DNA of 45,026 bases from contig QHRA01000173.1 of assembly GCA_003221295.1 (NCBI GenBank), forward strand, positions 1 to 45,026, given 5' to 3'. The notes below the pieces were generated by a model. That model was not told the DNA's origin. It made no database searches and saw only the letters and a program-made list of their open reading frames with translations. This document shows, piece after piece, positions 8,459 to 40,219 of the stretch. The first letter of the stretch is position 1; the number at the start of each line of letters is the position of its first letter. This DNA is from Verrucomicrobiota bacterium (GTDB lineage: Bacteria > Verrucomicrobiota > Verrucomicrobiia > Chthoniobacterales > UBA10450). The position numbers were made by a program, and so were the translations under genes.

Positions 8459-11400
8459 GTGGAAAAAAACAGCGCGGAATTCCTGCGGCTGGCTGCGGAA
8501 GCTGAACCGATCCAACGCAAGCTGCGCCAGATCGCAGCGGGCGATTTTCCAGTTTCCTTCTCCCATGTGATCGAGAGCGCACAGCCGTTTGTTGTCGCAA
8601 CCATTGCGGAACATGATCGCCGCAGTATTTGGGTTATCTGCCCGACGGTGCGCGCGCAGGAGCTTTTTTTCGAAAGCCTGTCGAATTGGAATTCGAATGC
8701 CTCGTTCTTACCGGAAGCGGAGTTCGCGGCGGTCGAGAACATTTTGCCGGATCCCGAAATTGCAGCGGAGCGGCTGGCGCTGCTGTCCCAAATCGAAAAG
8801 GAGAACGCCGCCAAAGTAGTCGTCACGACCCGAGCGGCACTGGATCAGCCCGCCCCAAGCCGTGGCACATTGCGCTCGGCTTCGCTTGAAATTCAGCGCG
8901 GGCCGAACATGGCAATGCCTGCGTTGTTGAGCGCATTGTCCGGTGCCGGCTACGAACGCGTCGCCCAGGTTACGACCCGGGGTCAGTTCGCGGTCCGCGG
9001 CGGTATTGTCGATATTTTTTCATGGCAAACCGCCCTGCCGCTGCGGATTGAATTCTACGGCGACGAAATTGAATCGCTGCGTGAATTTGACCTCGATACT
9101 CAAACGTCCGTCCACACTCGCGAGCAGGCGAGTGTGCTTCTGAGCGCGGCCGACGATACCAGCGGTCGCGTCCGGGATTACATCACCCAGGACACCCTCG
9201 TGATCGAGCTCGAACCCGCATTGGAGGGCGGAGCTCCTGCGACGCAGGGCTCGCTGGAGCTCGCCCCTCCAAGCCACATTCAAATTAGCGAAAGCTGGAT
9301 CGAAAATGTTGAGGCAGGGCCGGAGGATTTTTCCGGTGCATTTGTCGAATGCGACATCGGCGAATTCGCCGTTGGCGATTTCGTGCTCGCGGAAACGAAA
9401 CGCGCGCAATTCATCGCGCGGCTCAAGCGATGGCGCGACGAACACGCAACCGTTGCGATCTATTTTCAAACCGAGGGCGAGATCGAGCGTTTTCGCGAGA
9501 TCATTTCGGTCGACGCACTGGCCGGCATAAATCTGCTCGAAGGAACATTGAGCCGCGGGTTTTGTTTTCCCGCCGCCAATCTGGTCATTCTCTCGGCCAA
9601 CGAACTGCTCGGGCGTTTTCCCATCCATGGCCGTCGACGTTTGCGCCGCGCAGAACGACGCAATCGCGCGCAAATTGATTTCAGCGAGCTCAACGAAGGC
9701 GACCTTGTCGTCCACCTCGAGCACGGCATCGGAAGATTTCTCGGGCTAATCGAAATGCCGGCAATAGAGGAGCGAGCTCCGGCGAGCCCGGCGTCGCTGG
9801 AGCTCCGCCCTCCAAAACGAGCGTCGGGGGCGAGACAGGAAGTCCTCGTTTTGGAGTTCGCCGACGAAGCGAAACTCTATGTTCCGCTGGAGCAAGCCTA
9901 TTTGGTTTCCCGTTACGTTGGCGTCGGGAAAAAATCGCCGCCGCTCAGCTCGCTGGCGGACGCGAAATGGGCGCGGGCGAAGAAAAACGCGACCGCCTCT
10001 ATTTTTGATTACGCCGGAAAAATGCTCGCACTTCAGGCCGAGCGCCAGACCAACCCGGGCCACGCCTTTGGCGCCGACACCAAATGGCAGGCGGAGTTCG
10101 AACACTCCTTTCCGTACCGCGAAACCCCCGATCAACTAACCGCGATCATCGATACCAAGACCGACATGGAACAGGCCCAGCCCATGGATCGCCTGATTTG
10201 CGGCGACGTCGGTTTCGGCAAAACCGAGGTCGCCATCCGGGCCGCCTTCAAGGCCGTGATGGACGGCAAACAAGTCGCAGTCCTCGCGCCTACCACCGTG
10301 CTCGCACAACAGCATTTCGAAACTTTTCGGCAACGAATGTTGGATTACCCGATCCGGATCGAGATGCTAAGCCGGTTCCGCTCGCTGGCCGAGCAGAAGA
10401 AAGTCCTACAACTATTGCGCGAAGGTGGGGTCGACATTATCATTGGGACGCACCGCCTCATTTCCGACGATGTGAGTTTCAGAGACCTCGGTCTGGTCGT
10501 GATCGACGAAGAACAGCGCTTCGGAGTTCTGCATAAGGAAAAATTCAAAGAACTGTTCAAGCTTGTCGATCTCCTCACTCTTTCGGCCACACCGATTCCG
10601 CGCACTCTCTATCTCTCGTTAGTCGGCGTCAAAGACATGTCGACCATCGAAACGCCGCCGCAAAATCGGCTTCCGGTCGAAACGGCGGTCTGTGGTTATG
10701 ACGAGCGAATTATTCGCGATGCCATTAATCGCGAGCTGGAGCGCCAGGGGCAGGTTTTTTTTCTGCATAATCGCGTGCAATCGATCGAGAAAGTGCGCGA
10801 TCGCGTTGCTGAACTTTGCCCGGATGCGCGAGTTGAGTTTGGTCACGGCCAGATGGGCTCCGAGGAATTGGAAGCGGTGATGCATCGCTTTGTCATGGGC
10901 ATAATCGATGTGCTGGTCTGCACCACCATCATCGAAAGCGGCCTGGACATTCCAAATGCCAACACCATTATCATTGATCGCGCCGATCGTTTCGGCCTGG
11001 CCGATTTGTATCAACTGCGCGGGCGGGTCGGGCGTGCCGAGCACAAAGCGTACGCTTACCTTTTGCTGCCGCGCGAGCTCATGATGGTCGGCGCCGCGCG
11101 CAAACGAGTCGACGCCATCAAACAATACAGCTCGCTCGGCGCCGGTTTTCGGGTTGCCATGCGCGATCTCGAGATTCGCGGCGCCGGCAGTATTCTCGGC
11201 ACCGCTCAAAGTGGACACATCATGGCAGTGGGTTTCGATCTATATTGCCAATTGCTCAAGCAAGCCGTCGCCCAAATTAAAGGCCAAAAACCGCGCTGGC
11301 GCCTCGAAGTAGAGGTGCGGCTCGATTTCGTCGCCACTAACGAAGCCGAGTTTGTCCACGGCGACGCTGTCGTCTCCGCTTTTCTCCCCCGCAGCTATAT

Positions 11401-11719
11401 CAACGATACCACCCTGCGCATTCAGGCTTATCGGCGGATCGCGGAAATCACCACTGCGGATCACTTGGATCGGCTGATCAATGAATGGCGCGATCGCTTT
11501 GGCGCGTTCCCTGAGGCCGTGGAAAATCTCGTTACCCTGGCCCGAATCAAACTCGCCGCCGCCAAACAGGAAATCACCAGGATCGAAACGCGGGAGGACA
11601 AATTGATGTTGACGAGGCGCGGGGATTTTATACTTGTCGCGGGCAAATTCCCTCGTTTAGTTGCCCCGGAAATCAAAAAGCGGCTGCAGGAAATTCTCGG
11701 GCTGCTTGGCAAACTCTGA
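8459..11719 (+). CDS. mfd: Transcription-repair coupling factor Mfd
   Basis: 1086 residues; releases RNA polymerase stalled at lesions and recruits UvrA. The UvrB-homology N-terminal region spans about 1-330 (RGQFAVRGGIVDIFSW near 180), and the CarD-like polymerase-interaction domain starts near 405 (LNEGDLVVHLEHGIGRFLGL). The helicase motor has GDVGFGKTE (Walker A, near 580), the DEEQ box in VIDEEQRFGV (near 683) and the QLRGRVGRA motif. The TRCF C-terminal domain begins about 955. GTG start at 8459 with no clear ribosome binding site. Two stretches, near 255-272 and 436-452, are encoded by palindromic repeats and look like in-frame insertions. SurA-like follows after 4 bases. Confidence 0.96.
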   Translation: MEKNSAEFLRLAAEAEPIQRKLRQIAAGDFPVSFSHVIESAQPFVVATIAEHDRRSIWVICPTVRAQELFFESLSNWNSNASFLPEAEFAAVENILPDPEIAAERLALLSQIEKENAAKVVVTTRAALDQPAPSRGTLRSASLEIQRGPNMAMPALLSALSGAGYERVAQVTTRGQFAVRGGIVDIFSWQTALPLRIEFYGDEIESLREFDLDTQTSVHTREQASVLLSAADDTSGRVRDYITQDTLVIELEPALEGGAPATQGSLELAPPSHIQISESWIENVEAGPEDFSGAFVECDIGEFAVGDFVLAETKRAQFIARLKRWRDEHATVAIYFQTEGEIERFREIISVDALAGINLLEGTLSRGFCFPAANLVILSANELLGRFPIHGRRRLRRAERRNRAQIDFSELNEGDLVVHLEHGIGRFLGLIEMPAIEERAPASPASLELRPPKRASGARQEVLVLEFADEAKLYVPLEQAYLVSRYVGVGKKSPPLSSLADAKWARAKKNATASIFDYAGKMLALQAERQTNPGHAFGADTKWQAEFEHSFPYRETPDQLTAIIDTKTDMEQAQPMDRLICGDVGFGKTEVAIRAAFKAVMDGKQVAVLAPTTVLAQQHFETFRQRMLDYPIRIEMLSRFRSLAEQKKVLQLLREGGVDIIIGTHRLISDDVSFRDLGLVVIDEEQRFGVLHKEKFKELFKLVDLLTLSATPIPRTLYLSLVGVKDMSTIETPPQNRLPVETAVCGYDERIIRDAINRELERQGQVFFLHNRVQSIEKVRDRVAELCPDARVEFGHGQMGSEELEAVMHRFVMGIIDVLVCTTIIESGLDIPNANTIIIDRADRFGLADLYQLRGRVGRAEHKAYAYLLLPRELMMVGAARKRVDAIKQYSSLGAGFRVAMRDLEIRGAGSILGTAQSGHIMAVGFDLYCQLLKQAVAQIKGQKPRWRLEVEVRLDFVATNEAEFVHGDAVVSAFLPRSYINDTTLRIQAYRRIAEITTADHLDRLINEWRDRFGAFPEAVENLVTLARIKLAAAKQEITRIETREDKLMLTRRGDFILVAGKFPRLVAPEIKKRLQEILGLLGKL
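9221..9272. repeat. Palindromic repeat family B inside mfd (site 1)
   Basis: Inverted arms TTGGAGGGCGGAGCTCC (9221-9237) and GGAGCTCGCCCCTCCAA (9256-9272) match at 15 of 17 positions around an 18-base spacer. It encodes about residues 255-272 of Mfd (LEGGAPATQGSLELAPP). The same words occur at 9765-9814 and, half-length, at about 5660-5690 outside any gene. The frame is kept open through it. Confidence 0.8.
9765..9814. repeat. Palindromic repeat family B inside mfd (site 2)
   Basis: Arms TAGAGGAGCGAGCTCC (9765-9780) and GGAGCTCCGCCCTCCA (9799-9814) are inverted copies (12 of 16 pairs). It encodes about residues 436-452 (IEERAPASPASLELRPP), between GRFLGL and the conserved VLEFADEAKLYVPLEQ of the polymerase-interaction domain, where other Mfd proteins have a much shorter linker (from memory). 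Confidence 0.8.
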
Positions 11720-11723
11720 AACT

Positions 11724-12710
11724 ATGGTTCGTCCCCTCCTTGTTATATTGTTCACGGCAGCACTGCTGTCGTTGTCATCGCTCTGTCGCGGAGCATTGGC
11801 AGCTGAACCCGAAGTGATTAATGGCATCGCTGCCGTCGTCAAAAGCAATGACACCACCGATGTCATTACCTATTCGGAAGTGCGGGTGTTGTCCGCCCCC
11901 AAAGAAAAGCTATTACGCCAGCAATTCCAGGGCGAGGAGTTGCTTACGAAAATGAAAGAGGCCCGCGCCGCTGCTCTCAAGGATCTAGTCGATCGCCAGC
12001 TCATCATTCAGGCATTCAAAAAAGAGGGCTACCAGATTCCTGATCACTACCTCGATCAACGCGTTCAGGACATCATCCGGGAGAACTTCAATGGCGATCG
12101 CAACACCTTCATCAAGACCCTCCAGGCGCAAAACTACACTATCGGAGAATTCAAAAAAATGGAGAGCGACAGGATGATGGTGCAGGCGATGCGGCACAAG
12201 AAGGTGGAACTCAATACCATCATCTCACCTAACCGGATTCAGGATTACTATCGCAAGCATGCCTCCGAGTTCACCAGCAAGGAGCAGGTTAAATTGCGCA
12301 TGATCATGATCCCAGCCGGCACTTCCGATCCGGCGGGACAGAAGGCAATGGCGGAGGAGATTCTCGGCAAGCTGGTTAACGGCGCCGAATTCGAGCGCAT
12401 GGCACAAATTTATTCCGAAGACAGCACCCGTGATCTTGGCGGCGATTGGGGCTGGGTCGACCGCGGCACCTTGACGGCGCCGCTCGAGAAAGTCGCGTTC
12501 AACTTGCGACCCGGAAAAGTCAGCAACATCATCCAGCTCGGCGGCAATTATTACATTCTCAAAGTCGAAGATAAACGCGGCGGCGTCACGCGCTCCTTCG
12601 CCGAAGTACGCGAAGAGATTGAGAAAAAATTGGTCACGGAAGAAGCGCAGGCCAAGCAGGAACGCTGGCTGACTAGCCTGCGCCAGAAAGCCTACATCAA
12701 GATGTACTGA
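11724..12710 (+). CDS. surA: SurA-like periplasmic chaperone / parvulin peptidyl-prolyl isomerase
   Basis: 328 residues from ATG 11724, four bases after the mfd stop. Residues 1-27 form a signal peptide (MVRPLLVILFTAALLSLSSL, then CRGALAAEP). A SurA_N-like helical domain follows (about 28-190; GIAAVVKSNDTTDVITYSEV, LKDLVDRQLIIQAFKKEGYQ). One parvulin (PpiC) domain lies at about 190-290: VKLRMIMIPAG, FERMAQIYSEDSTRDLGGDW, GWVDRGTLTAPLEKVAFNL. E. coli SurA has two isomerase domains, so this is a single-domain form. It likely escorts outer-membrane proteins. The mfd-surA-pdxA order suggests one transcript, though a 166-base gap precedes pdxA. Confidence 0.88.
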   Translation: MVRPLLVILFTAALLSLSSLCRGALAAEPEVINGIAAVVKSNDTTDVITYSEVRVLSAPKEKLLRQQFQGEELLTKMKEARAAALKDLVDRQLIIQAFKKEGYQIPDHYLDQRVQDIIRENFNGDRNTFIKTLQAQNYTIGEFKKMESDRMMVQAMRHKKVELNTIISPNRIQDYYRKHASEFTSKEQVKLRMIMIPAGTSDPAGQKAMAEEILGKLVNGAEFERMAQIYSEDSTRDLGGDWGWVDRGTLTAPLEKVAFNLRPGKVSNIIQLGGNYYILKVEDKRGGVTRSFAEVREEIEKKLVTEEAQAKQERWLTSLRQKAYIKMY

Positions 12711-12714
12711 AGTT

Positions 12715-12826
12715 TGATGTTTGGCGTTGAGGTTTGATGTAAAGCGTCGCGCGTTAGCACTTCGGCGTTGGATGTTGAGTGTTCGATGTTGGATGTTCAC
12801 GATTCTCGATTCTCGGATCGCGATCC
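12715..12826. repeat. Degenerate tandem-word repeat between surA and pdxA
   Basis: Overlapping copies of short words (TTTGATGTTTGGCGTTGAGG, GTTGGATGTTGAGTGTTCGA, TGTTGGATGTT) are followed by GATTCTCGATTCTCGGATCG. Units of 6-8 bases are irregularly repeated, like the stretches at about 23127-23157 and within the thiL end. No gene or clear hairpin is visible. Confidence 0.6.
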
Positions 12827-12876
12827 CATAATCACTGCTCCATTGCACAGAGCGGGAACTTCCGAGACAATGCCCG

Positions 12877-13764
12877 ATGCCTCTTCGTATCGGAATTACA
12901 CTCGGTGATCCCGCCGGAATCGGACCCGAGATTATTCGGTCGGCGCTCGAGTCGGGCAAGCTAACGACTGATATCGACTATAAAGTAATCGGCCAGGTCG
13001 GGACTTTAGGTGCGGGAAGCCCATCGCCCGATTCCGCCCGCGCCGCATTCGCCGCCATGGAAGAAGCGGCTGGCCTCGCCAATTCCGGTGAAATCGACGC
13101 CATCGTTACCGGCCCGATCCACAAAGCGCGGATGGCCGAAATTGGATTTGAATTTCCGGGGCAGACCGAATTTTTCGCGGCGCGCTCTGGCACAACCAAC
13201 TACGCAATGCTCCTGACTGGAGGCACCATCACCGTCGCGCTCGTCACAACTCACGTACCGCTGCGCGACGTTCCCGCCTCGCTCAAGACCTCTGAAATCG
13301 TCCGGGTCGGCCGGCTACTCGACAATTTCTTGCGCCGTCGCGGCAAAGCCGCTTCCGGCATTGCGGTCGCCGGTTTGAATCCGCACGCGGGCGAATCCGG
13401 AAAAATCGGCTGCGAAGAAATCGAAATCATCGCTCCTGCCATCGCCGAATTAAACCAATCCCTTCTCACTTCTCAGCAATCACCTTCTCGTTTTACCGGC
13501 CCCCACCCCCCCGACACGCTCTTTTTCCATCTCGCTAACGAGGAATGGGATGCCGCCCTCTGCATGTACCACGACCAAGGTCTGATTCCATTAAAGTTAC
13601 ATGCCTTTCATTCCGGGGTGAACGTCACCCTGGGTTTGCCATTTCCGCGAACCAGCCCCGACCACGGCACCGCTTTCGATATCGCCGGCAAAAATGTCGC
13701 GCGACCAGATAGCATGATCGCGGCGATCAATCTGGCCGCGGAGCTCGCGCAGAAAAACACCTAG
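12877..13764 (+). CDS. pdxA: 4-hydroxythreonine-4-phosphate dehydrogenase PdxA
   Basis: 295 residues. Oxidises 4-phosphohydroxy-L-threonine in the DXP-dependent pyridoxal phosphate pathway; cytosolic. The start IGITLGDPAGIGPEIIRSAL is diagnostic. Metal-binding histidines are seen in TTHVPLRDVP, in MYHDQGLIPLK and in SPDHGTAFDIAGK, and VTGPIHKARMAEIGFEFPGQ is conserved. It is shorter than E. coli PdxA (329 residues), missing some 35 residues between about 38 and 50 where the second alpha/beta unit lies. A non-conserved stretch, NQSLLTSQQSPSRF, sits near residue 195. Neither change touches the visible metal ligands, so it is probably active. Confidence 0.93.
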   Translation: MPLRIGITLGDPAGIGPEIIRSALESGKLTTDIDYKVIGQVGTLGAGSPSPDSARAAFAAMEEAAGLANSGEIDAIVTGPIHKARMAEIGFEFPGQTEFFAARSGTTNYAMLLTGGTITVALVTTHVPLRDVPASLKTSEIVRVGRLLDNFLRRRGKAASGIAVAGLNPHAGESGKIGCEEIEIIAPAIAELNQSLLTSQQSPSRFTGPHPPDTLFFHLANEEWDAALCMYHDQGLIPLKLHAFHSGVNVTLGLPFPRTSPDHGTAFDIAGKNVARPDSMIAAINLAAELAQKNT

Positions 13765-13816
13765 TCATGTTTGCCGCGAAACACACGAACCAAACGAAAA
13801 ACGGAACAAGCGATAA

Positions 13817-14437
13817 ATGAAGAAAATTCCCCCCTCGCATTTCATCTTGCTCGGCGCTGTCGCTATCGTCCTGGGGTGGTCGGCATGGCAGCCGTACGAT
13901 CGCTTGACCTGGTGGCTGGAAGTTTTCCCGGCACTCGCCGTCTTGGTGGTTCTATTCGCGACTTACCGGCGCTTTGAATTCACGACTTTGACCTACACCC
14001 TCATTGCCCTGCACATGTGCGTGCTTTTTGTCGGCGGTCACTATACCTATGCCCGCGTCCCGTTATTCGATTGGCTTCGACCAATTTTCGGCTGGCATCG
14101 CAACCACTACGATCGGTTCGGTCATATCATGCAAGGCTTTGTCCCCGCCATCGTCACGCGCGAAGTTTTCATTCGCCTCCAGGTGTTGAAGCAAACACGC
14201 TGGCAACCGTTTCTTATTGTCTGCGTTTGCCTTGCCATCAGTGCCTTTTACGAGCTCATCGAATGGTGGACAGCGCTGGCCAGCGGCGACGCCGCCATTA
14301 GCTTTCTCGGCACCCAGGGCGACCCATGGGATACCCAGGAAGATATGTTTTGCGCCCTGCTCAGCGCTATTGCCGCCATCGTTCTCTTGTCGCGAGTTCA
14401 GGACCGCGCGATTAGCCGCTTGGCCGCTCGCAGTTGA
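13817..14437 (+). CDS. DUF2238 (YjdF-like) inner-membrane protein
   Basis: 206 residues with about five to six hydrophobic segments, starting at SHFILLGAVAIVLGWSAW. It carries the family's marks: GGHYTYARVPLFDWLR, the NHYDRFGHIMQGFVPAI stretch, FYELIEWWTAL and the GDPWDTQEDM motif. The polar residues Tyr-Asp-Arg and His-Gln within membrane segments are typical of DUF2238, but no activity is known to me. It is followed after 2 bases by the ABC-2 permease gene, so co-expression is likely. Confidence 0.87.
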   Translation: MKKIPPSHFILLGAVAIVLGWSAWQPYDRLTWWLEVFPALAVLVVLFATYRRFEFTTLTYTLIALHMCVLFVGGHYTYARVPLFDWLRPIFGWHRNHYDRFGHIMQGFVPAIVTREVFIRLQVLKQTRWQPFLIVCVCLAISAFYELIEWWTALASGDAAISFLGTQGDPWDTQEDMFCALLSAIAAIVLLSRVQDRAISRLAARS

Positions 14438-14439
14438 TC

Positions 14440-15249
14440 ATGAACCTTGCCAAGTACGGTAGCGTTTTTAACATCGGTTTGCAGAATACCTTCGTCTATC
14501 GCTGGAACTACTTTCTGCGCGCACTTTTCGGTTTGATCCCACTTGCCGGCACGGTCTTTCTCTGGCGCGCCATCTTTCGAGAGCCGGGCGGCAAAGGTTT
14601 CGGCGGCTACGATTACGGCTCGATGATTTACTATTATTTATTAACGATTCTGGTCTCTAACCTGGTCACCCCAACGGAGGACGACTGGCAGATCGCAGCC
14701 GACATTCGCGAAGGCCAGATCAATTCCTTCCTGACCAAACCCCTAAGCTATCTCGGCTATCGGACCGGTATCTTCCTCGCTGGCCGGCTGGTCTATACGG
14801 CCGTCACGATTATCCCAATCGCGCTGATCTTCTTCTACTTCCGAGACTACCTTCAACTGCCATCAAGCGCAGCTACCTACTTGCTGTCGATTACTTCGCT
14901 CATCATGGCCGCGTTCATTCAGTTTTTCATTACCTACTCACTGGCGATGATGGCGTTCTGGGTACTCGAAATTTCAACGATTGTTTTCATTGTCTACTCA
15001 TTCGAATACTTTCTAGGCGGCCAGATGTTTCCGGTCGATATTATGCCAATTGGCGTGCAAGCAGTCATGAAATGGCTGCCGTTCTACTACGAGCTATTTT
15101 GCCCGATCGCGATTTTTCTCGGCCGCCTGCAAGGCGCCGAGCTGGTTCAGGCACTGGCTATCCAGTCCTGTTGGCTAGTTCTCACCTGGGCCGTCGCCCA
15201 ACTCATGTGGAAGCGGGGCCTCGGCCATTACCAGGCCGTTGGTGGATAG
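14440..15249 (+). CDS. ABC-2 type transporter permease (COG4587-like)
   Basis: 269 residues, six probable membrane segments. TEDDWQIAADIREGQINSFL and KPLSYLGYRTGIFLAGRLVY match the ABC2_membrane_6 class of export permeases, which normally work as a pair of unlike permeases with one ATPase. ATG at 14440 was taken instead of the TTG at 14434, which overlaps the preceding stop. The likely partner permease is at 19265-20068, beyond the rhodanese and MacAB genes, and no matching ATPase is in the window. Substrate unknown. Confidence 0.85.
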   Translation: MNLAKYGSVFNIGLQNTFVYRWNYFLRALFGLIPLAGTVFLWRAIFREPGGKGFGGYDYGSMIYYYLLTILVSNLVTPTEDDWQIAADIREGQINSFLTKPLSYLGYRTGIFLAGRLVYTAVTIIPIALIFFYFRDYLQLPSSAATYLLSITSLIMAAFIQFFITYSLAMMAFWVLEISTIVFIVYSFEYFLGGQMFPVDIMPIGVQAVMKWLPFYYELFCPIAIFLGRLQGAELVQALAIQSCWLVLTWAVAQLMWKRGLGHYQAVGG

Positions 15250-15300
15250 CTTGGATTCGCTATTGGCTTCAGCGGTTAATTCGACGTGACCATGCTCTGG

Positions 15301-15666: not shown

Positions 15667-15917
15667 AACCTAAGTTTGTCCCGCAGCAACAAGACCGCTA
15701 CAGATTATTCAGCCGCGACACGGGAAATAGACGACGAAGCACGAATGACGAAGCGCCCACGACAGTTGGATTTTGGTCTAATCCCAGGTTTCCGTCCGTT
15801 TTTTGTGAAACTTAAATGCCCTCTCCCCAAAGGAGAGGCGGACGCGTTAGCGACTTCGGTCATTTGAGCATTAGGGCTTCCTTGTCATTCGTCCTTCGTC
15901 ATTTTTTCCAACGTTCA
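15667..15917. other. Non-coding spacer with a short hairpin repeat
   Basis: No credible gene. It contains words such as GACGAAGCACGAATGACGAA and TTCGTCCTTCGTCATT, plus a hairpin CTCTCCCCAAAGGAGAG (about 15821-15837). That hairpin shares its stem type with the element at 43456-43588. It probably carries the 3' end of the macB transcript. Confidence 0.6.
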
Positions 15918-17135: not shown

Positions 17136-17142
17136 CTTTTGC

Positions 17143-17204
17143 TGTAGCGGCGGTCTATGACCGCCGAAAGTATCCGAAATCGGCGGTCATAGACCGCCGC
17201 TACA
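17143..17204. repeat. Palindromic repeat family A (double hairpin)
   Basis: Two inverted arms of 24 bases, TGTAGCGGCGGTCTATGACC... (17143-17166) and its exact complement (17181-17204), are separated by 14 bases. Each arm is itself a hairpin (CGGCGGTC, loop TAT or ATA, GACCGCCG). It separates the ATPase and permease genes of MacB. The stop codon of the ATPase (17187-17189) lies inside the right arm, and the permease start lies 7 bases from the left arm. Confidence 0.92.
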
Positions 17205-21281: not shown

Positions 21282-21479
21282 TGTAGCCGCCGCCGTCTCC
21301 GGCGGCAGAATTGAGCCGGCGCCACCTGCGTTGCTTTAGCCGCCCGCCGCAACCGACCATTTGACGGAACACAGACTTTCCAGTCTGTGCGCCCAGCGGA
21401 GTTTTACGCTGCTCACGCCCGCGTGAACAACAGCGGGGAGAATCCCCGCTGGGCGCACAGGCCACCGGCCTGTGTTCCG
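21282..21479. repeat. Palindromic repeats families C and E after rpsR
   Basis: Two adjoining units. The first, TGTAGCCGCCGCCGTCTCCG... (21282-21307), is a self-complementary hairpin resembling the left arm of the element inside the acyl-CoA synthetase gene (36283-36353). The second (21365-21479) is bounded by CGGAACACAG and CTGTGTTCCG, with inner hairpins CACAGACTTTCCAGTCTGTG, CAGCGGGGAGAATCCCCGCT and CACAGGCCACCGGCCTGTG. It recurs at 38278-38380. The rest of the gap to 21557 shows no gene. Confidence 0.85.
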
Positions 21480-31682: not shown

Positions 31683-31744
31683 TGTCGCGGCGCTCTATGA
31701 GCGCCGAAAGTAACAAAGCTCGGCGGTCATAGACCGCCGCTACA
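31683..31744. repeat. Palindromic repeat family A (mixed stems)
   Basis: Left arm GTCGCGGCGCTCTATGAGCG... (31683-31706) and right arm CGGCGGTCATAGACCGCCGC... (31721-31744). Each arm folds on itself (GCTC-TAT-GAGC and GGTC-ATA-GACC stems), but the two arms no longer pair perfectly with each other. It lies between the thioesterase ATG and the citrate synthase stop. Confidence 0.9.
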
Positions 31745-31753
31745 GATTCAAAT

Positions 31754-32896: not shown

Positions 32897-33046
32897 TGAG
32901 GTGTTTCTTTACTCGCGAATGGCCAACGTTCAACGGCCAAGATCGACGTTGGCGATTGGAGGGACGCGCGCTGTCATGTCCCAAATTTTGGGGGCCGACC
33001 CGCCATCGCATTGCTATGGCGTAGCAGGCAGCGCGGCGCTCTCCAT

Positions 33047-33910
33047 TTACAGATTACGCGCTCCGGACCAACTTGCCGCCTTTGGATCGTAATCGAGCAA
33101 TTGATAAAGTTCCTCTCGCGTCTGCATTTTCTCCAGCCAATCGCTCTGACTCTCGCGCGTTTTCAAGTCGCGCAAAAATTCCGACGTCGATTTCATGGAA
33201 ACGCGAAATGCACTTTGCGGAAAGATGACCATCCGATAACCCAGCTCACGCAACTCATCGAATGAGAGCAGGGGCGATTTCCCGAATTCCGTCATGTTCG
33301 CCAGCAGCGGAACCTCCACTTCCTTCGTGAAATCGCGAAATTCCTCTTTCGTCTGCAGTGCCTCCGGGAAAATTGCGTCGGCGCCGGCAGCGACGTAAGC
33401 CTGCGCTCGCTTTACCGCGCCGTCGAAACTTTCAATCGCCCGTGCATCCGTTCGCGCGATCACCAAAAAATCTTTATCGCGTTTCGCCGCTACCGCCGCA
33501 GCAATCTTCTCCTCCATGTCGGCTGACGGGATCAGCGATTTTCCCGCGAGATGTCCGCACCGTTTGGGAAATTCCTGATCCTCCAGATGACAGCCGGCCA
33601 AACCCGCGCTTTCCAATTCGCAGATCGTGCGCGCTGCGTTTTCCGCGCCACCAAATCCTGTGTCGGCATCGACAATCGCTGGAATTTTTACCGCCTTGGC
33701 GACAAAACCGGCAAGTAACGCGACCTCGCTTAGAGTTAGCAACCCGATGTCCGGTAATCCCGCGGTGCAATTCGCCAGTCCAGCGCCACTTATATAAACC
33801 GCATTAAATCCGGCACGCTCCACCTGCCGCGCGATCGAAGCGTTTGGCACACCAGGCATCGCCACGCAATCCTTCGCGATCAACTCCCGCAATCGGACTG
33901 CTTTTGTCAT
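33047..33910 (-). CDS. prpB: 2-methylisocitrate lyase PrpB
   Basis: 287 residues from ATG 33910 (MTKAVRLRELIAKDCVAMPG). ICL/PEP mutase superfamily: FNAVYISGAGLANCTAGLPD, IVDADTGFGGAENAARTICE, the catalytic loop FPKRCGHLAGKSLIP with Cys, FLVIARTDARAIESFDGAVK and FPEALQTKEEF. It splits 2-methylisocitrate into pyruvate and succinate. The frame is open upstream; an ATG at 34021 overlapping the prpD stop (TAATG) would add 37 residues encoded almost wholly by palindromic repeat family D. The shorter start already begins where the family begins. Confidence 0.94.
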   Translation of the reverse strand: MTKAVRLRELIAKDCVAMPGVPNASIARQVERAGFNAVYISGAGLANCTAGLPDIGLLTLSEVALLAGFVAKAVKIPAIVDADTGFGGAENAARTICELESAGLAGCHLEDQEFPKRCGHLAGKSLIPSADMEEKIAAAVAAKRDKDFLVIARTDARAIESFDGAVKRAQAYVAAGADAIFPEALQTKEEFRDFTKEVEVPLLANMTEFGKSPLLSFDELRELGYRMVIFPQSAFRVSMKSTSEFLRDLKTRESQSDWLEKMQTREELYQLLDYDPKAASWSGARNL

Positions 33911-34014
33911 TCCGAGCGAAAATGCCACTCCGGCTCGGAGCGAGGAATCCCGTTGCGAAACCTTTAAGGTAACGTCCGCGGAATCCCTCAACTTCGCTCG
34001 GGATGACGGGCTCT
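33908..34014. repeat. Palindromic repeat family D, copy 1
   Basis: Ends TGTCATTCCGAGCGAA and TTCGCTCGGGATGACGGG are inverted; inner words CACTCCGGCTCGGAGCGAGG and AACCTTTAAGGTAACGTCCG recur in copies at 35459-35565 and 37548-37693. It lies between prpD and prpB and contributes the start region of prpB. Confidence 0.88.
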
Positions 34015-34020
34015 TTTTCA

Positions 34021-35409
34021 TTAGGGCATCCGCAGCAGCTTCATCAAATGATGCACGCCACTCTCCTCCTCGAGCGCCCAGGCACATTGCAGAATTTTCG
34101 CGCAATGATCCCGTCCCAGTGCCGGCGCGACCAGATGCAGAAATTTTCGCTCCAGCTCGACGTCCGACACCGGATTTTTCGCGTTGCCCAGCGGATAATC
34201 GACACGCTTTGTCAACATGCGGCCATCTTTCAGTGTGACATGCACGATGTTCGCTACGGCACCTGGATAAAGCGCACTTAGCTCGGCGTTGCGCGTCACT
34301 TTCACGTTTTCCAAAAATTTCCAAATCGTCGGATCGGTAAATCGCGAGGACTGAAATTGTTTGTCGCTTACTTGGCCATCGATCAACGCGATCGCGGTAA
34401 TGTATGGCAGGCTGTGGTCGGCGGTCTCGCGCGTTTCCGGTCTCCATTTTTCCGGCTCGCTTCCGATAATATCGACCGACGCCTCGTGCGATTCGATGTT
34501 AACTGAGGCGACCTGCGAAATGTCGTTGATTTGTTCGCGCAAAAACAACGCCGCCTCGATCGCGCTCTGGCTATGATATTCGGCCGGCCAATATTTGATA
34601 CTCGTGTTCAAAATCATCGACGCTGGTCCCTGCGGATTTTGTGGAAACGGCACCGCGAATTTTTCACCAACGTTACCAAGCGAAACCCCAAGTTCTTTCT
34701 CGAATCCCATTTGCCCTTCAAAAATCGGAGCCGGCCCGGTCATTCCCGCACGCGCGAGCAGCGCCGAGTAAACTCCATGCCGCGCTGCGTTCGCGAATGC
34801 CACCCCTTTCCAATGCGAGAGTTCGCCGACGCGTGCCTGTCGCATTGCTGCGCAGGCCACGCCCGCGATATTGACCGCGTGGCGCATTTTCTCCCGATCA
34901 AGTTTCATCAACTTCGCCGACGCTAGCGCGGTCGAGAACGCCCCGTAGGTCACATGGTCCCAGCCCCGCGAACGAATGCTGGCCGCATCGCACAAACGGC
35001 ATTGCACTTCATAGGCTAGCGCGATCGCGGTAATGGCGTCGCGTCCATTCGCGCCCACGCTCTCCGCCACCGCTAGCACCGCGGAAATATTGTCGCTCGG
35101 ATGCGCCGGTTCCTTCGACAGATAGGTATCGTTGTAATCGAAATAACGGATACAACAGCCAGTCGCGAACGCCGCCCAATCCGGCGGTGCCTGGTGGTGC
35201 GTGCCGACAATGGTCGCACCATGTTTCGCAGAAAATTCCGACGCGACTTCCCGCGCAATCCGGCAGGGCTCTTCGTTCCATGCGCCCAGCGCACAACCTA
35301 TGGAATCGATTACTCGCCGTCTCACTTCGTGCACAGTTTCGCGCGAGAGATCTTCGAAACGCAGGGCCCAAGCGTATTCGGCAAATTGATGGGCGAGCGA
35401 TTTGGTCAT
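34021..35409 (-). CDS. prpD: MmgE/PrpD family 2-methylcitrate dehydratase
   Basis: 462 residues. LRFEDLSRETVHEVRRRVID and SIGCALGAWNEEPCRIAREV open the family; FATGCCIRYFDYNDTYLSKE, AHPSDNISAVLAVAESVG and SIKYWPAEYHSQSAIEAALF carry the conserved Asp, His and Lys positions. The all-helical then alpha/beta layout fits the length. It dehydrates 2-methylcitrate to 2-methyl-cis-aconitate without an iron-sulfur cluster. The stop overlaps an upstream ATG of prpB in the form TAATG. A hydratase/isomerase (AcnD or AcnB) needed for the next step is not in the window. Confidence 0.94.
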   Translation of the reverse strand: MTKSLAHQFAEYAWALRFEDLSRETVHEVRRRVIDSIGCALGAWNEEPCRIAREVASEFSAKHGATIVGTHHQAPPDWAAFATGCCIRYFDYNDTYLSKEPAHPSDNISAVLAVAESVGANGRDAITAIALAYEVQCRLCDAASIRSRGWDHVTYGAFSTALASAKLMKLDREKMRHAVNIAGVACAAMRQARVGELSHWKGVAFANAARHGVYSALLARAGMTGPAPIFEGQMGFEKELGVSLGNVGEKFAVPFPQNPQGPASMILNTSIKYWPAEYHSQSAIEAALFLREQINDISQVASVNIESHEASVDIIGSEPEKWRPETRETADHSLPYITAIALIDGQVSDKQFQSSRFTDPTIWKFLENVKVTRNAELSALYPGAVANIVHVTLKDGRMLTKRVDYPLGNAKNPVSDVELERKFLHLVAPALGRDHCAKILQCAWALEEESGVHHLMKLLRMP

Positions 35410-35458
35410 GAAAAAATTGGAAGCTGCAATGTGACGATGAATGGCGGCTAAGCAACAT

Positions 35459-35565
35459 CGGCATCCCGAGTGGAACTGCCACTCCGGCTCGGACCGAAGG
35501 ATCCTGTGACGTTACCCTTAAAGTCACATTGCGGGATTCCTCGACTTCGTTCGAAATGACGGGAA
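35459..35565. repeat. Palindromic repeat family D, copy 2
   Basis: Between divergent prpD and the acyl-CoA synthetase gene. It starts GGCATCCCGAGTGGAACTGC and ends TTCGTTCGAAATGACGGG; the inner CCACTCCGGCTCGGACCGAA and GACGTTACCCTTAAAG match copy 1. It ends 9 bases before the GTG start of the synthetase and occupies most of the shared promoter region. Confidence 0.87.
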
Positions 35566-35574
35566 AATGTAATC

Positions 35575-37557
35575 GTGAGCGAATTTCAATTCGGTGGCGA
35601 ATTCGTATGGCATCCCTCGCCCGAGCTCATCGCGCAATCGAACCTGCAATCGTTCATCAATCGGCACGACCTCGGTTCATTCGATGAATTAATGCGGCGT
35701 TCCACCAGCGATATCTCCTGGTTCTGGGATACGGTCCTGCGGGACCTCGGCATCGAATTCTACAAGCCCCACGAAAAAGTCGTCGACCTTTCAAAGGGAA
35801 AAGCGACGCCGCAATGGTGCGTTGGCGGCGAAATGAACATCGTCCACAGCCTGCTCGATAAATATGCCGGCACGGCTATCGACAAAAAAATCGCCATCAC
35901 ATCGGAGACGGAGGATGGCAAGTCGCGCCGGCTGACTTACGCTGAGCTTCGCGCCGAAGTAAATAAAATGGCGGGAGCGTTGCATTCGCTCGGTCTGGGC
36001 AAAGACGATGCCATTGGTGTCTTCATGCCAATGGTGCCGGAAATCGTGATCGCGATGCTCGCGATCATCAAGATCGGTGGGATTTTCTTGCCGCTCTTTT
36101 CCGGATTTGGCGTGTCCGCCATCGTGTCGCGCCTAAAAGACGCCGACGGTAAAGCGCTCTTCACTGCGGACGGAACCTTTCGCCGCGGGAAATTTTGCGC
36201 AATGCGACCAATCGCGGAAGAAGCGGCCGCACAAGTTCCGACGCTGAAACATTTGATCGTGCTAACGAAAAACAGCGAGTGGGTTGTAGCTGCCGCCATC
36301 GCTGGCGGCAGGACCGAGGAACCTCTGCCGCTGAGGACAGCAGCAGCCACAACAAACACCGAGAAAACGAGCGCCGAGGATGTGATGATGCTCATCTACA
36401 CCTCAGGCACAACCGGCCGGCCGAAGGGCGCGGTACATACTCACTGCGGGTTCCCGATTAAGGCCGCGCAAGACATGTGGCATGGACTTGATCTTCATGG
36501 TGACGAGACACTCTTCTGGCTTACCGATATGGGGTGGATGATGGGTCCATGGCTCGTTTTTGGGACGCTGGTGCTAGGTGCTACCATGATGCTTTACGAT
36601 GGCGCCCCCGATTTTCCAGGACCCGATCGCGTTTGGAAATTGTGCACCGATCACAAGGTCACCGTGCTGGGCGTTTCGCCCACGCTGATCCGCGCGCTCC
36701 GAAAATATGGCGACGAAATTGTTAATCGGCACGATCTAACGAAACTTAGGAAATTCGCCTCAACCGGCGAACCGTGGAACCCGGATCCCTGGCTCTGGCT
36801 CTTTCGCGTCGTCGGGCGCGGAAAACTGCCGATCATCAATTACTCTGGCGGCACTGAAATTTCCGGCGGCATTCTGATGGGGAATGTGCTGACGCCGATG
36901 AAGCCGTGCGCGTTCTCCGGACCGTTGCCTGGGATGGCGGCCGATGTCGTCGACGAAAATGGAAACTCGATTCGCGGGAAAGTTGGCGAGCTCGTCATTC
37001 GCGAACCCTGGATCGGCATGACGCGCGGATTTTGGCGGGATCCGCAGCGTTATCTCGATACCTATTGGTCGCGCTGGTCTGACGTTTGGGTGCACGGCGA
37101 TTGGGCCGCAATTGATGATGAAGGACTTTGGTACATTCTCGGCCGGAGCGACGACACGATTAAAATTGCCGGGAAACGCGTCGGGCCGGCGGAAGTCGAA
37201 TCGATTCTGGTCGCGCACGCGCACGTCAGCGAAGCAGCGGCGGTCGGCGTGCCGGATTCGATCAAAGGCGAAGCATTGGTTTGCTTTTGCGTCCTGAAAA
37301 ATGGCGACAACGCATCGGCTGACATTGCCCAGGAGTTGAAACAAAGCGTCGCGCGTGACCTCGGCAAAGCGCTGGCGCCGCGCGAGATTATTTTCGTGAC
37401 CGACATTCCGAAAACACGAAATGCAAAAGTGATGCGTCGCATCGTGCGTGCCGCTTATCTCGGCGAAAAACTCGGCGACACTTCGGCGTTGGAAAATCCC
37501 TCGGCAATCGAAGCAATTACTAGTGCGAGAGGAAGTAAGAAAATCTCGTCATCCTGA
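35575..37557 (+). CDS. Acyl-CoA synthetase (acetyl-/propionyl-CoA synthetase type)
   Basis: 660 residues, GTG start. ANL superfamily, AcsA-like: N-terminal SISWFWDTVLRDLGIEFYKP-like segment, P-loop MLIYTSGTTGRPKGAVHTHC (about 272-291), TDMGWMMGPWLVFGTLVLGA, INYSGGTEISGGIL, the hinge WYILGRSDDTIKIAGKRVGP and the acetylatable Lys region PKTRNAKVMRRIVR. It forms acyl-AMP then acyl-CoA; beside prp genes, propionate is the likely substrate. Residues about 237-260 are encoded by a palindromic repeat (36283-36353) and look inserted. The stop TGA lies in repeat family D that follows. Confidence 0.92.
   Translation: MSEFQFGGEFVWHPSPELIAQSNLQSFINRHDLGSFDELMRRSTSDISWFWDTVLRDLGIEFYKPHEKVVDLSKGKATPQWCVGGEMNIVHSLLDKYAGTAIDKKIAITSETEDGKSRRLTYAELRAEVNKMAGALHSLGLGKDDAIGVFMPMVPEIVIAMLAIIKIGGIFLPLFSGFGVSAIVSRLKDADGKALFTADGTFRRGKFCAMRPIAEEAAAQVPTLKHLIVLTKNSEWVVAAAIAGGRTEEPLPLRTAAATTNTEKTSAEDVMMLIYTSGTTGRPKGAVHTHCGFPIKAAQDMWHGLDLHGDETLFWLTDMGWMMGPWLVFGTLVLGATMMLYDGAPDFPGPDRVWKLCTDHKVTVLGVSPTLIRALRKYGDEIVNRHDLTKLRKFASTGEPWNPDPWLWLFRVVGRGKLPIINYSGGTEISGGILMGNVLTPMKPCAFSGPLPGMAADVVDENGNSIRGKVGELVIREPWIGMTRGFWRDPQRYLDTYWSRWSDVWVHGDWAAIDDEGLWYILGRSDDTIKIAGKRVGPAEVESILVAHAHVSEAAAVGVPDSIKGEALVCFCVLKNGDNASADIAQELKQSVARDLGKALAPREIIFVTDIPKTRNAKVMRRIVRAAYLGEKLGDTSALENPSAIEAITSARGSKKISSS
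36283..36353. repeat. Palindromic repeat family C inside the acyl-CoA synthetase gene
   Basis: Arms at 36283-36311 (GTTGTAGCTGCCGCCATCGC...) and 36325-36353 (CTGCCGCTGAGGACAGCAGC...) are inverted with 21 of 29 pairs kept. The left arm resembles TGTAGCCGCCGCCGTCTCCG after rpsR. It encodes VVAAAIAGGRTEEPLPLRTA and a few more residues, between LKHLIVLTKNSEW and the P-loop segment, a site that is variable in the family. Confidence 0.75.
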
Positions 37558-37693
37558 GCGGAGCGGAGCGAAGTCGCCTGCCGCGCCGTAGCTTTTATGC
37601 GAAGGCTGGGAAGGATTCCGGTGTGAAAGCCTAAAGGTTACGCGGCGGGATCCCTCGGTCCGAGCCGGACTGGCATTTTCGCTCGGGATGACG
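37548..37693. repeat. Palindromic repeat family D, copy 3 (inverted, longer)
   Basis: Starts CGTCATCCTGAGCGGAGCGG and ends CATTTTCGCTCGGGATGACG. Read on the minus strand it begins like copy 1 (GAGCGAAAATGCCAGTCCGG, then CTCGGACCGAGGGATCCCG and AACCTTTAG). A non-shared block near 37575-37615 makes it longer. The TGA stop of the synthetase (37555-37557) lies inside it. Confidence 0.87.
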
Positions 37694-37755
37694 ACGCCAC
37701 CCAAACATCACGATTTCATCGATTTTTTTGAAGCAACCTGTTTGAATCTTCGCTT

Positions 37756-38169
37756 ATGAAAAAACACTCATTTCCTTTCGCGATGATTGCTTTGGCCACG
37801 ATCGGGATCGTCATGGCCGCCGGACCGGCGAAATTTGATGGCGAATTTGTGGACAAGAAATTTCTGAATGGACAAGGGGTGTTTGAGTTCAGCATTCATC
37901 AGATTGGCAGCGCGCTCGAGATTGCATTTGATGCGGCCTACTCCGATGGCCACGGCGCCACGCCTGATGCGACTGGCGCAGGCAAAGTCAACGGAAATGC
38001 GGCGCAGTTCGCCTGGAAGGACAGTTTCGGTAATACTGGGACGGGCACGATCAATCTCGCTGGCGACGATATCGTCGTCTCAATGAAAACGGTGCACGTC
38101 ACCGACCCGCGCTGTCTCGCGTTTTATCGTGACAACATGAAGCTAAAGCGCGTCGGGAAGAAATCGTAG
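37756..38169 (+). CDS. Small exported protein of unknown function
   Basis: 137 residues. Signal peptide at 1-21 (SFPFAMIALATIGIVMAAGP). The mature part is beta-rich with many Gly, Asn and Thr (GEFVDKKFLNGQGVFEFSIH, GAGKVNGNAAQFAWKDSFGN, TGTGTINLAGDDIVVSMKTV), ending in a single Cys segment DPRCLAFYRDNMKLKRV. The pattern suggests a lipocalin- or barrel-like small domain, but no family is recognised. It stands between two repeat clusters and has no evident operon partner. Confidence 0.75.
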   Translation: MKKHSFPFAMIALATIGIVMAAGPAKFDGEFVDKKFLNGQGVFEFSIHQIGSALEIAFDAAYSDGHGATPDATGAGKVNGNAAQFAWKDSFGNTGTGTINLAGDDIVVSMKTVHVTDPRCLAFYRDNMKLKRVGKKS

Positions 38170-38183
38170 CGTGGCTAAGTCTC

Positions 38184-38380
38184 CTTGGTGGGGCGACGCT
38201 CTGCGGTGCCGCACTCGTTGATTCGACGGCTCGACGGAGTCTCGCCCTACCAATCGGTTGCGTTCGGGGTAGAGAGAAACACAGGATTCCTGCCTGTACG
38301 CCCAGCGGACATTCTGTCCGCTGTTACAGAGTCAGCGGAGTTCAAGTCCGCTGCGCGCACAGACTGTAAGTCTGTGTTCC
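38184..38380. repeat. Two palindromic repeats between the exported protein gene and the mutase
   Basis: Unit 1 (38184-38253): TTGGTGGGGCGACGCTC and GGAGTCTCGCCCTACCAA are inverted arms, a family seen once here. Unit 2 (38278-38380): family E, with AACACAGGATTCCTGCCTGT, CAGCGGACATTCTGTCCGCT, CAGCGGAGTTCAAGTCCGCT and CACAGACTGTAAGTCTGTG hairpins, matching 21365-21479. The mutase stop (38387-38389) lies just beyond. Confidence 0.85.
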
Positions 38381-38386
38381 TTTTCG

Positions 38387-40219
38387 CTACACCATCGGAC
38401 GAAAACGCCCGACGATTTCCTGCAAGCGGCCGGTGATTTGACCGAGCGAACAAACTTCCACCGCTTCTAACAACGCAGGAAAGCAGTTTTCGCCGCGTTC
38501 AACGACCGCGCCCAGTTTATCGAGCGCGCGCTTTGATTTCTCCGCGTTTTTCTTTTTGAACTTCTTCAACCGCTCGACTTGCAATTTTTGTTTCGCTCGG
38601 GGAGTCCTCGCCAACTCGACCTCAGGCATCTCATCCGCGCCGTTGCGATAGCGATTTAATCCGACGATCGGACGCGTTCCGTCATAAATTTGTTGTTCGT
38701 AACGGTGGGCGGCATTTTGGATCTGACTGCGCTGATAACGATTCTCCACCGCCGCGAGCACACCGCCGAGCGATTCGATCTCACGAAATTCATCGAGAAT
38801 CGCTTTCTCAACCGCGCGCTCGACTGCTTTCATCCCGGGCGAGCCGCTCAAGATGTTCATGGTGTGCTTAAAGATTCCGGATTCTTCGAGCAGAATTGCC
38901 TGTCCATGCGCGGCAAGACGAATCCATTCCTCGCTTGGCGTGGTAAACGGTTCGTCGGCGCTGTTTGAATGACACGAGTTGGTGCCGTTCATGTAAGCCA
39001 GCATCAATTCGGCCGCGGTGCGGGTGAGGTTATTTTTGAACTCGGCGGCGATGAGCGACCGCCCGCTCGTTTGCGTGTGCAGTTTGAACATCTGTCCGCG
39101 TGCGTTCGCGCCAAAGACGTCGCGCATTCCGATCGCCCAGATTTTTCGCGAAACACGCGCGAGCGCGATGTATTCGACGTCGAGTCCGCAATCGAGGAAG
39201 AAAGAAAGCCGTGGTGCAAACTGATCGACCGGCACGCCCCGCGCACTTAGCATTTCGGCGTAAGCGAAACCATTGGAGAGGGTATAGGCCGCTTGTTGCA
39301 CCGGCGTCGATCCCGCTTCGCCGATGTGATAACCACTGATCGAAACCGGATACCAGCGCGGCATGTTCGCCGTTGTCCATTCAATCATGTCGCAAAGAAA
39401 ACGCAGCGACGCTTCCGTCGGAAAGATCGTTTCATTCTGCGCCTGGACTTCCTTGAAAATGTCGGCCTGAATCGTGCCGCGCAGATTCGGCACCACCTTC
39501 GCACCGAAGCGACGTTTTGCCGCCGCGATGTACATCGCCATGATAATCGGCGCCGGACCGCTGATTGTCATCGAGGCGGAAAAATTTGGAGCGCCGAGCT
39601 CAAAGCCATCGTAGAGCCGTACCATGTCTTCCACCGTGTCGACCGCGACTCCACCCTCGCCAATCTTGCCGAAGACACCGTCGGCATCGGAATCGATTCC
39701 GTAGAGGGTTGGGCCATCGAACGCGGTACTGAGACGTTTCGAGCGCTGATGCGCGCTCAAGAAATGGAAACGCTTGTTCGTGTCCTCAGCCAGCATCAGG
39801 CCGGAAAACAAACGAGTCGGTTCCTCCTGTAGCGGCGGCCGTGTCGGCCGCTCCGCGGGTTTTGCACGCGACACGCGCGCCGCTACAGCTTCGCCGTTTT
39901 TCTGGAAGCTCTCGATCTCGCGCAACGGCTCGAGATACATCTCGCGATAAGCGCCGTTCAGATACGGGAATTCACCCGGCAAACCATCGCCAAAAAGGTA
40001 GCGCGCGATTTCGCCCGGCTCGTCAATCTCGGGCAAAGCCAGGCGCGGCAAAGGCAATCCAGTCGGCGCTTTTGAAATTGGGATTTCCGCTTTGACCTTG
40101 TTCCAGCGGTCGGTCACTGCCTGCGCGAATTTTTCATCACTCCGCGCCCGCTTGACTTGTTCAAGCACAAAACGCCCGTGCTTTTCGACTGCTTCAACGA
40201 CTGCTCCAAGTTTGCTCAT
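38387..40219 (-). CDS. IcmF-type acyl-CoA mutase catalytic subunit (stand-alone)
   Basis: 610 residues; the B12-dependent mutase barrel without its own B12-binding domain. Marks: FPYLNGAYREMY, TNKRFHFLSAHQRSKRLSTA, NLRGTIQADIFKEVQAQNET, PVSISGYHIGEAGSTPVQQA, KLHTQTSGRSL and NSCHSNSADEPFTTPSEEWI. The tail (RLKKFKKKNAEKSKRALDKL, EVCSLGQITGRLQEIVGRFR) is that of IcmF, not of methylmalonyl-CoA mutase. Gln replaces the methylmalonyl-type Arg in VQAQNET. Residues 111-131 come from an in-frame palindromic repeat. Start overlaps the B12/GTPase gene stop by 4 bases. Probably isomerises isobutyryl-, butyryl- or a related acyl-CoA. Confidence 0.9.
   Translation of the reverse strand: MSKLGAVVEAVEKHGRFVLEQVKRARSDEKFAQAVTDRWNKVKAEIPISKAPTGLPLPRLALPEIDEPGEIARYLFGDGLPGEFPYLNGAYREMYLEPLREIESFQKNGEAVAARVSRAKPAERPTRPPLQEEPTRLFSGLMLAEDTNKRFHFLSAHQRSKRLSTAFDGPTLYGIDSDADGVFGKIGEGGVAVDTVEDMVRLYDGFELGAPNFSASMTISGPAPIIMAMYIAAAKRRFGAKVVPNLRGTIQADIFKEVQAQNETIFPTEASLRFLCDMIEWTTANMPRWYPVSISGYHIGEAGSTPVQQAAYTLSNGFAYAEMLSARGVPVDQFAPRLSFFLDCGLDVEYIALARVSRKIWAIGMRDVFGANARGQMFKLHTQTSGRSLIAAEFKNNLTRTAAELMLAYMNGTNSCHSNSADEPFTTPSEEWIRLAAHGQAILLEESGIFKHTMNILSGSPGMKAVERAVEKAILDEFREIESLGGVLAAVENRYQRSQIQNAAHRYEQQIYDGTRPIVGLNRYRNGADEMPEVELARTPRAKQKLQVERLKKFKKKNAEKSKRALDKLGAVVERGENCFPALLEAVEVCSLGQITGRLQEIVGRFRPMV
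39828..39887. repeat. Palindromic repeat family A inside the mutase gene
   Basis: Exactly 60 bases. Outer arms TGTAGCGGCGGCCGTGTCG (39828-39846) and CGACACGCGCGCCGCTACA (39869-39887) pair at 17 of 19 positions. Each half also folds alone (GCGGCCG-TGT-CGGCCGC and CGCG-ACA-CGCG), the double-hairpin plan of 17143-17204. It encodes residues about 111-131 (VAARVSRAKPAERPTRPPL), between EMYLEPLREI and the conserved EEPTRLFSG. Confidence 0.9.

Follow-up and report, generated by a model that had tools for sequence, protein, structure and literature searches.

Putative REP-type palindromes in reused in-frame slots of conserved genes, and RAYT transposases apparently carried whole within host enzymes, in Verrucomicrobiota

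Rickettsia palindromic elements (RPEs) are palindromes that occupy conserved genes of unrelated kinds and preserve the reading frame (Di Nocera, 2013; review PMC10969869, both as far as available), and the GTAG class of repetitive extragenic palindromic (REP) sequences likewise occurs within genes, often those for repair. In the available portions of the latter description (Di Nocera, 2013; PMC3733652), Opitutus terrae carries the most intragenic GTAG repeats, with both of its uvrA genes affected, two Xanthomonas hold different REPs at roughly the same recB site, CGTC-tagged repeats are equated with RPE-4/RPE-6, and TIRtrons are relatives of the REP-associated tyrosine transposases (RAYTs) with flanking inverted repeats other than GTAG REPs. 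Here we describe palindromic elements in a 45,026-nt stretch (the window) of contig QHRA01000173.1 of Verrucomicrobiota bacterium GCA_003221295.1, a genome of 2.98 Mb. Compared across relatives, they make it very probable that palindromes of the REP or REPIN (REP doublet forming hairpin) type are carried as in-frame peptides in reused slots, alongside a clade of RAYTs that is carried whole in host enzymes. The original prediction for this stretch knew of no description of this kind for Verrucomicrobiota, a novelty claim that fails because intragenic GTAG REPs were already reported in O. terrae, as the accessible part of Di Nocera (2013) records. Beyond that prediction are the reuse of sites by different families and the presence of whole transposase genes in in-frame sites of the same kind.

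The observation of hairpin elements in frame inside conserved protein genes is real: within a few bases of the positions first noted, four lie inside the open frames of Mfd, an acyl/acetyl-CoA synthetase-like protein and an acyl-CoA mutase (Table 1). Folded as RNA on the + strand and compared with 500 dinucleotide shuffles, the hairpins gave z-scores of -4.8 and -4.3 (Mfd slots 1 and 2), -3.1 (CoA synthetase) and -2.3 (mutase), and equally stable pieces of the same length from the three host genes numbered 0 of 861, 0 of 863, 5 of 842 and 0 of 852 respectively. Only one of the stated element lengths (52, 50, 71 and 60 nt) is divisible by three; that the reading frame is kept follows from the occupied and empty Mfd alleles, which differ by whole codons (84 versus 45 nt and 90 versus 33 nt). 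In a structure prediction with a mean predicted local distance difference test (pLDDT) score of only 70.7, slot 1 falls between predicted strands 247-251 and 274-276 (pLDDT below 50 at residues 256-268), and slot 2 at a predicted turn between long strands 423-434 and 459-467 (below 50 at 438-457). Both Mfd inserts are absent from many Chthoniobacterales, from four Verrucomicrobiales-type loci (L108-L111), from L106 and from a Tritonobacter (L117), so that distant orthologs do not carry equivalent residues. Of two alignments with PDB entries, the one to Mycobacterium smegmatis Mfd is broken at site 2 by a gap of 20 residues, and in that with M. tuberculosis Mfd the gaps are spread differently. 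For the CoA synthetase no empty close ortholog was found; four orthologs carry the same element and L183 a different sequence.

The element families recur well beyond the window. A genome-wide copy search, which covered families A and B, found 78 sites for the family A arm and 27 for family B, with 0 for the reversed-pattern control of each. One family B copy, in a FadB-like gene (G000:C39), encodes a peptide nearly identical to that of Mfd slot 1. Placement of family A copies covers 30 of the 78 sites, some in-gene calls being weak (L015 with a score of 6; L028 near a contig end), and yielded 25 distinct copies: 18 intergenic, three at gene edges and four in genes. For family B, 22 distinct copies were placed (13 intergenic, two at edges, seven in genes). 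In this GC-rich genome, real and control sequence were poorly told apart by a fold-energy scan of 40,003 windows, and inverted-repeat scoring was used in its place. Inverted repeats scoring at least 15 numbered 53, against 1 in a Markov control. A strict element detector found 63 elements (38 between genes, 14 at the edges of genes and 11 within called genes), counts that are lower bounds because it caught only the mutase element among the four in-gene elements of the window. The 11 lie in the mutase, YchF, an IleRS-like gene (two), a 2-oxoacid dehydrogenase fusion (two) and FadB-like, ResB-like, FAD-linked oxidase, UbiD and glycosyltransferase genes; the ResB-like and glycosyltransferase names are our own labels, and the UbiD and glycosyltransferase elements are not REP-like in appearance. 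The first proposal, that the palindromes have been copied, look mobile and are tolerated as short loop peptides of conserved proteins in the manner of RPEs, is borne out.

Their kinship lies elsewhere. Among tetramers found 0-2 bases before 7-9 bp hairpins in 605 kb of the genome (61 stretches, the window among them), TGTA ranks first (80/1551, 5.7 times the mean) and GTAG second (101/2099, 5.3 times), and families A and C and the mutase element start TGTAG and so carry the unpaired GTAG (GTRG) tag; the mutase element has only its outer TGTAGCGGCG/CGCCGCTACA in common with family A. Because GTAG is among the two most enriched tetramers and the genome carries RAYTs, the window elements are best read as putative REP-type (REPIN-like) elements. 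They resemble the GTAG REPs, REPINs and REPtrons, as far as the available descriptions go, in tag, hairpin, head-to-head doublets, genomic RAYTs and in-frame placement in repair and other genes. With RPEs they share in-frame insertion in unrelated genes, the part of the original parallel that stands. The family itself is of the REP/REPIN type with RAYTs of its own, and RPE membership was rejected, the CGTC tag of RPE-4/RPE-6 ranking only 147th; this distinction (GTAG rather than CGTC, RAYTs present) is drawn from the accessible descriptions of RPEs rather than from their sequences.

A comparison of Mfd at 80 loci found both insert sites empty in many relatives. Slot 2 carries five element types, several ending GTAG...CTAC, and on an Mfd tree of 78 rows from which the insert columns were left out at least 23 changes are needed over six states (the five types and empty), the mean for shuffled labels being 38.8. 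Element types were labelled by eye, L117 and rows of fewer than 600 residues were excluded, and site 1 of L040, L081, L082, L092, L099, L103, L105 and L107 and site 2 of L107, being partial or unclear, were set to unknown. The mutase linker is similar in pattern: in relatives it is either plain or filled by different inserts that contain GTAG (L222, L223, L226, L228). The comparisons show the Mfd sites as slots that have been repeatedly refilled by different elements, with turnover of types at one slot. The REPs described by Di Nocera (2013), in the portions available, differ in this respect, since here a single site is filled, over the members of an order, by at least five element types; a second difference is the RAYT itself in frame inside a host protein. 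Separately, site 1 of L096 and L083 holds a different in-frame palindrome (AACTTGACGGCTTTAAGCCGTCAAGTT and a variant) with no GTAG tag, and slot 2 of L066 and L075 a CCCCGAA.GCTTTCGGGG palindrome within a REPIN-like insert, a kind also present at 5573-5590 of the window.

Seven frames of the window's own genome match Y1_Tnp, one of them an IS200 proper and six best matching the REP-associated tyrosine transposase model (NF047646; curated cut-off 80 bits), four above the cut-off (117.1, 98, 94.6 and 82.7 bits) and two below it (77.9, and a fragment at 47.1). We sampled 39 genomes for RAYTs and RecG, the window's own and others of the same order; RAYT matches turned up in 36 of them and exceeded the cut-off in 30. 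For 37 of the 150 RAYTs listed, from 224 matches, the enclosing open frame reaches 500 aa or more. All 37 were inspected together with 45 further RAYT regions, and by reading their hosts are RecG (14, own genome included), CarB (9), MetH (5, at two sites), AlaRS (3), MqnA (2) and ValRS, a Sua5-like protein, ClpB and a restriction-modification protein (1 each). In one representative each of RecG, MetH, CarB, AlaRS and ValRS, host matches flank the RAYT and pass family cut-offs. A scan of 24 frames gave host-family matches on both sides of the RAYT in 11 (RecG, MetH, CarB, ValRS, four AlaRS and three LeuRS); the other 13 had a host match on one side only, a contig edge or no host family, the NCBIfam scan assigning none to L398 and L400 and giving no match at all for L390. 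NF047646 itself matched in 23 of the 24, at 56.5-86.6 bits, straddling its cut-off. These scans show RAYTs that continue the frame of a host protein and have a recognisable half of it on either side.

The nested copies keep the marks of RAYTs. The HUH motif is present in 36 of 37, in a set first chosen with a pattern demanding HUH; that pattern gave no frame for L344, L348, L354, L357, L360-L363, L378, L389, L392 and L401, among which L344 alone was re-inspected. A Tyr motif with the presumed catalytic Tyr was found in 20 of 20 examined with a loose pattern. In 29 of 34 the ends form inverted repeats better than 50 shuffles each; ends other than GTRG start TGGGGAGCGCAGG, a sequence shared with inverted repeats that lie between genes of this genome, or GGAACACAGAC. 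A candidate cognate RAYT with the same flanking repeats was found for the GGAACACAGAC family of the window, namely the MqnA-nested RAYT. Frames are continuous through the MqnA-nested RAYTs of G002 (L343) and G003 (L336). As observations apart, in an MqnA-like gene (L034, contig 280 of G000) two copies of one repeat flank a RAYT and the C-terminal half is in another frame, the MetH of L344 has a REPIN-like insert at the second MetH site, and a single MetH frame in G013 (L275) contains two separate RAYT matches.

On a 62-row RAYT tree, the 35 copies labelled as nested all belong to a single group with 37 members (support 98/93), the two remaining members of which were also found nested. Because sampling for this tree was biased to long frames and stand-alone clade-like frames turned up, we ran a profile search that did not select by frame. 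Of the 26 matches that a profile for one subclade gave, spread over 18 of the 39 genomes, 24 sit in frames of 600 aa or more and two stand alone; ten of the 26 had built the profile, and 14 of the 16 others lie in such frames. In a phylum sample of 288 genomes the same profile found seven matches (five new, two already counted), each within a frame of 600 aa or longer. The second subclade has matches in 79 of the 288 genomes, and among the 150 listed, 47 are inside frames of 500 aa or more, 30 of them among the best 50 listed and five among the last 50 listed; scanned hosts include AlaRS, RecG, LeuRS, HsdR, PglX, HypF and a RarA-like ATPase. The two profiles (A1 and A2) were each made from ten nested copies, which by itself favours matches that are close to such copies. 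Insertion sites recur: AlaRS inserts lie at profile position ~372-378 in five genomes, and a CarB in a genome from another family of the class (L380) has a RAYT, by reading, at the same site.

At one site of RecG, genomes differ in having no insert, a repeat remnant or a whole RAYT. Of the RecGs in the 39 genomes, 19 are uninterrupted, two of these (G017, G021) with repeat remnants, 13 genomes have a RAYT with both RecG halves in one frame, and in the rest, own genome included, RecG is incomplete, missing or cut by a contig end. The other matches to the RecG model in the 13 nested genomes look like Mfd, so these genomes showed no second RecG. Pairwise comparison of the RecG-nested RAYTs (n = 28) gave non-synonymous divergence (dN) of 0.06-0.43, with synonymous divergence (dS) saturated in 22 pairs, and dN/dS for RecG itself is 0.06-0.26. 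The comparisons show low non-synonymous change in the nested RAYTs, which, with the retention of HUH and the several repair and translation enzymes among the hosts, would suit domesticated domains kept for host function rather than selfish passengers. Presence is patchy at each site, however, different RAYT types occupy one site, hosts as unrelated as CarB, LeuRS, HsdR, HypF and PglX are involved, and the same clade includes stand-alone copies, all of which make domestication unlikely.

Slot reuse might also reflect old vertical inheritance and divergence of one ancestral insert. Presence or absence alone at Mfd slot 2 needs only eight changes on the 78-row tree, slot 1 needs ten and has family B in common to 14 rows, and nested RAYT identity tracks that of RecG for G009/G002. 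One slot nevertheless holds different hairpin families, and slot 2 contents differ between Mfd proteins that are 96.2% (L082/L099), 94.9% (window/L039) and 91.6% (L077/L078, L077 being chimeric in appearance) identical outside the slots. Between G004 and G010, RecG is 93% identical and the RAYTs nested at the same site only 56%, so that one RAYT was replaced in RecG. We regard vertical descent as improbable as an explanation of the reuse.

Still less probable, and by a clear step, is that the inserts are ordinary lineage-specific linker expansions, GC-rich and folding well by chance. They do sit in loops of low predicted confidence, and in several relatives of the mutase the corresponding linker is plain and not palindromic. 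Plain linker expansion was rejected since the same sequences occur between genes across the genome, inverted repeats exceed their control and the GTAG tag is enriched; largely contradicted by the genome-wide copies, it could apply only to the mutase element, which is less palindromic. An origin of the nested frames as assembly or reading-frame artefacts in GC-rich bins, suggested by the metagenomic source of the genomes and by copies at contig ends (own RecG, L268, L345, L385), is scarcely credible and was rejected, as the arrangement recurs in many separate bins, including G020 (10 contigs, 98% complete), both RecG halves together exceed the RecG cut-off in nine of the 13 nested genomes, and MetH, CarB, AlaRS, ValRS and LeuRS frames pass theirs too.

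We propose that the elements are non-autonomous REP/REPIN-type palindromes, probably moved by RAYTs, which are HUH-tyrosine transposases. An element landing in frame in a surface turn or linker would let the host gene survive with an extra peptide of about 13-40 residues, and the occupied site would become a slot in which one element could later be replaced by another. In the RAYT clade, an open frame without a stop through both ends would make the whole transposase an internal domain of the host enzyme, where it would be made, and may work, as part of the host protein, its catalytic residues having predicted roles. Survival in frame would reflect purifying selection on random insertions, and slot reuse may combine structural tolerance with resident repeats that serve as targets or recombination substrates.

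Several points weigh against this proposal. All of the evidence comes from sequence, mostly of metagenome bins. The intergenic bias of family A (18 of 25, with three more at edges) is one such point, and family B starts GGAG, outside the GTAG definition. GTRG doublets are head-to-head 22 times and tail-to-tail 0 times (at least 16/22 match), only a modest excess over control tag pairs (9, 14 and 17), for which reason the doublet count alone is weak evidence. A cognate RAYT for families A, B or C was not found. Among nested RAYTs, five of 34 have no inverted ends above chance, only nine of 34 have GTRG near the arm start, the MetH-nested copy of G009 (L344) has lost one His of the HUH motif (PDYVH for PDHVH), and the MqnA-nested RAYT of the window's own genome leaves the MqnA halves in different frames. 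For the RecG-nested pairs dN/dS is computable in six of 28 (0.05-0.23), five of them at dS above 1.6. Finally, stand-alone clade-like frames (L353, L355, L356, L358, L371) exist and are absent from the 62-row tree.

Inteins are likewise mobile-enzyme domains in frame in conserved enzymes, at recurrent sites and with empty alleles in relatives, and the nested RAYTs resemble them in each of these respects. They differ in that RAYT residues would be expected to remain in the mature protein; no intein or Hint domain was among the matches to Pfam (five nested proteins) or NCBIfam (24) at the E-value limits used, and intein identity was rejected on those scans. With TIRtrons the nested copies share inverted-repeat flanks that are not GTAG REPs, but TIRtrons are described, in the part of the source available, as genes with flanking repeats and not as in-frame domains. 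The balance tips modestly towards a RAYT clade with an intein-like, non-splicing lifestyle, which throughout Verrucomicrobiota would occupy a small number of recurrent loop sites as an in-frame part of essential enzymes and be swappable in place for other RAYTs, while short REPIN derivatives like those of the window turn over in similar slots. A limited literature search (open papers, preprints excluded) found no description of in-frame RAYTs nested in host proteins, and a term search of the available text of PMC6006769 returned neither Verrucomicrobia nor 'in-frame'. Bacterial transposons usually lie between genes or disrupt them; here a transposase and its short kin appear inside the coding sequence of essential enzymes, a residence that would tie element expression and survival to the host gene. 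Slots reused across an order would make it testable where inserts are tolerated and how proteins gain loops and domains, and would also offer a test of whether RAYTs move REPs.

Table 1. Palindromic elements of the window and the genes that carry them.
Feature	Position	Strand	Remarks
mfd gene	8459..11719	+	two in-frame elements; NCBIfam Mfd 959 bits (cut-off 800)
Family B element, Mfd slot 1	9221..9272	+	peptide LEGGAPATQGSLELAPP
Family B element, Mfd slot 2	9765..9814	+	opposite orientation; peptide EERAPASPASLELRPP
Acyl/acetyl-CoA synthetase-like gene	35575..37557	+	one element; acetate--CoA-ligase-like, best NCBIfam 565 bits, under cut-offs
Family C doublet in CoA synthetase	36283..36353	+	TGTAGCTGCCGCC...GCCACAAC, in frame
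Acyl-CoA mutase gene	38387..40219	-	one element; NCBIfam mutase N-terminal domain 407.6 bits (cut-off 303.8)
GTAG...CTAC doublet in mutase linker	39828..39887	-	
Family A doublet	17143..17204	.	gene edge; 25-bp perfect arms
Family A doublet	31683..31744	.	intergenic
Family A doublet	41371..41432	.	intergenic
Family B half-element	5650..5682	.	gene edge; hairpin weak alone (z -1.5)
Family C single REP	21282..21307	+	GTAG and hairpin; directly after weakly called open reading frame ending 21281
GGAACACAGAC...CTGTGTTCC family	21369..21476	.	ends resemble those of MqnA-nested RAYT
GGAACACAGAC...CTGTGTTCC family, second copy	38275..38381	.	intergenic

The window holds further palindromes. Another family, CATTCCGAGCGAA...GGAATCC, has three copies in it (33906-33987, 35458-35543 and 37632-37694), and a similar type is found in frame in the ResB-like gene (L137, 9823-9888) and in the Mfd of L056 and L090, as HSERSEAE-like peptides. 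Mosaic GTAG doublets lie around genes at 5591-5650 and 8272-8331, at 8322-8393 and at 42732-42841, and two of them are 92% inverted copies of one another.

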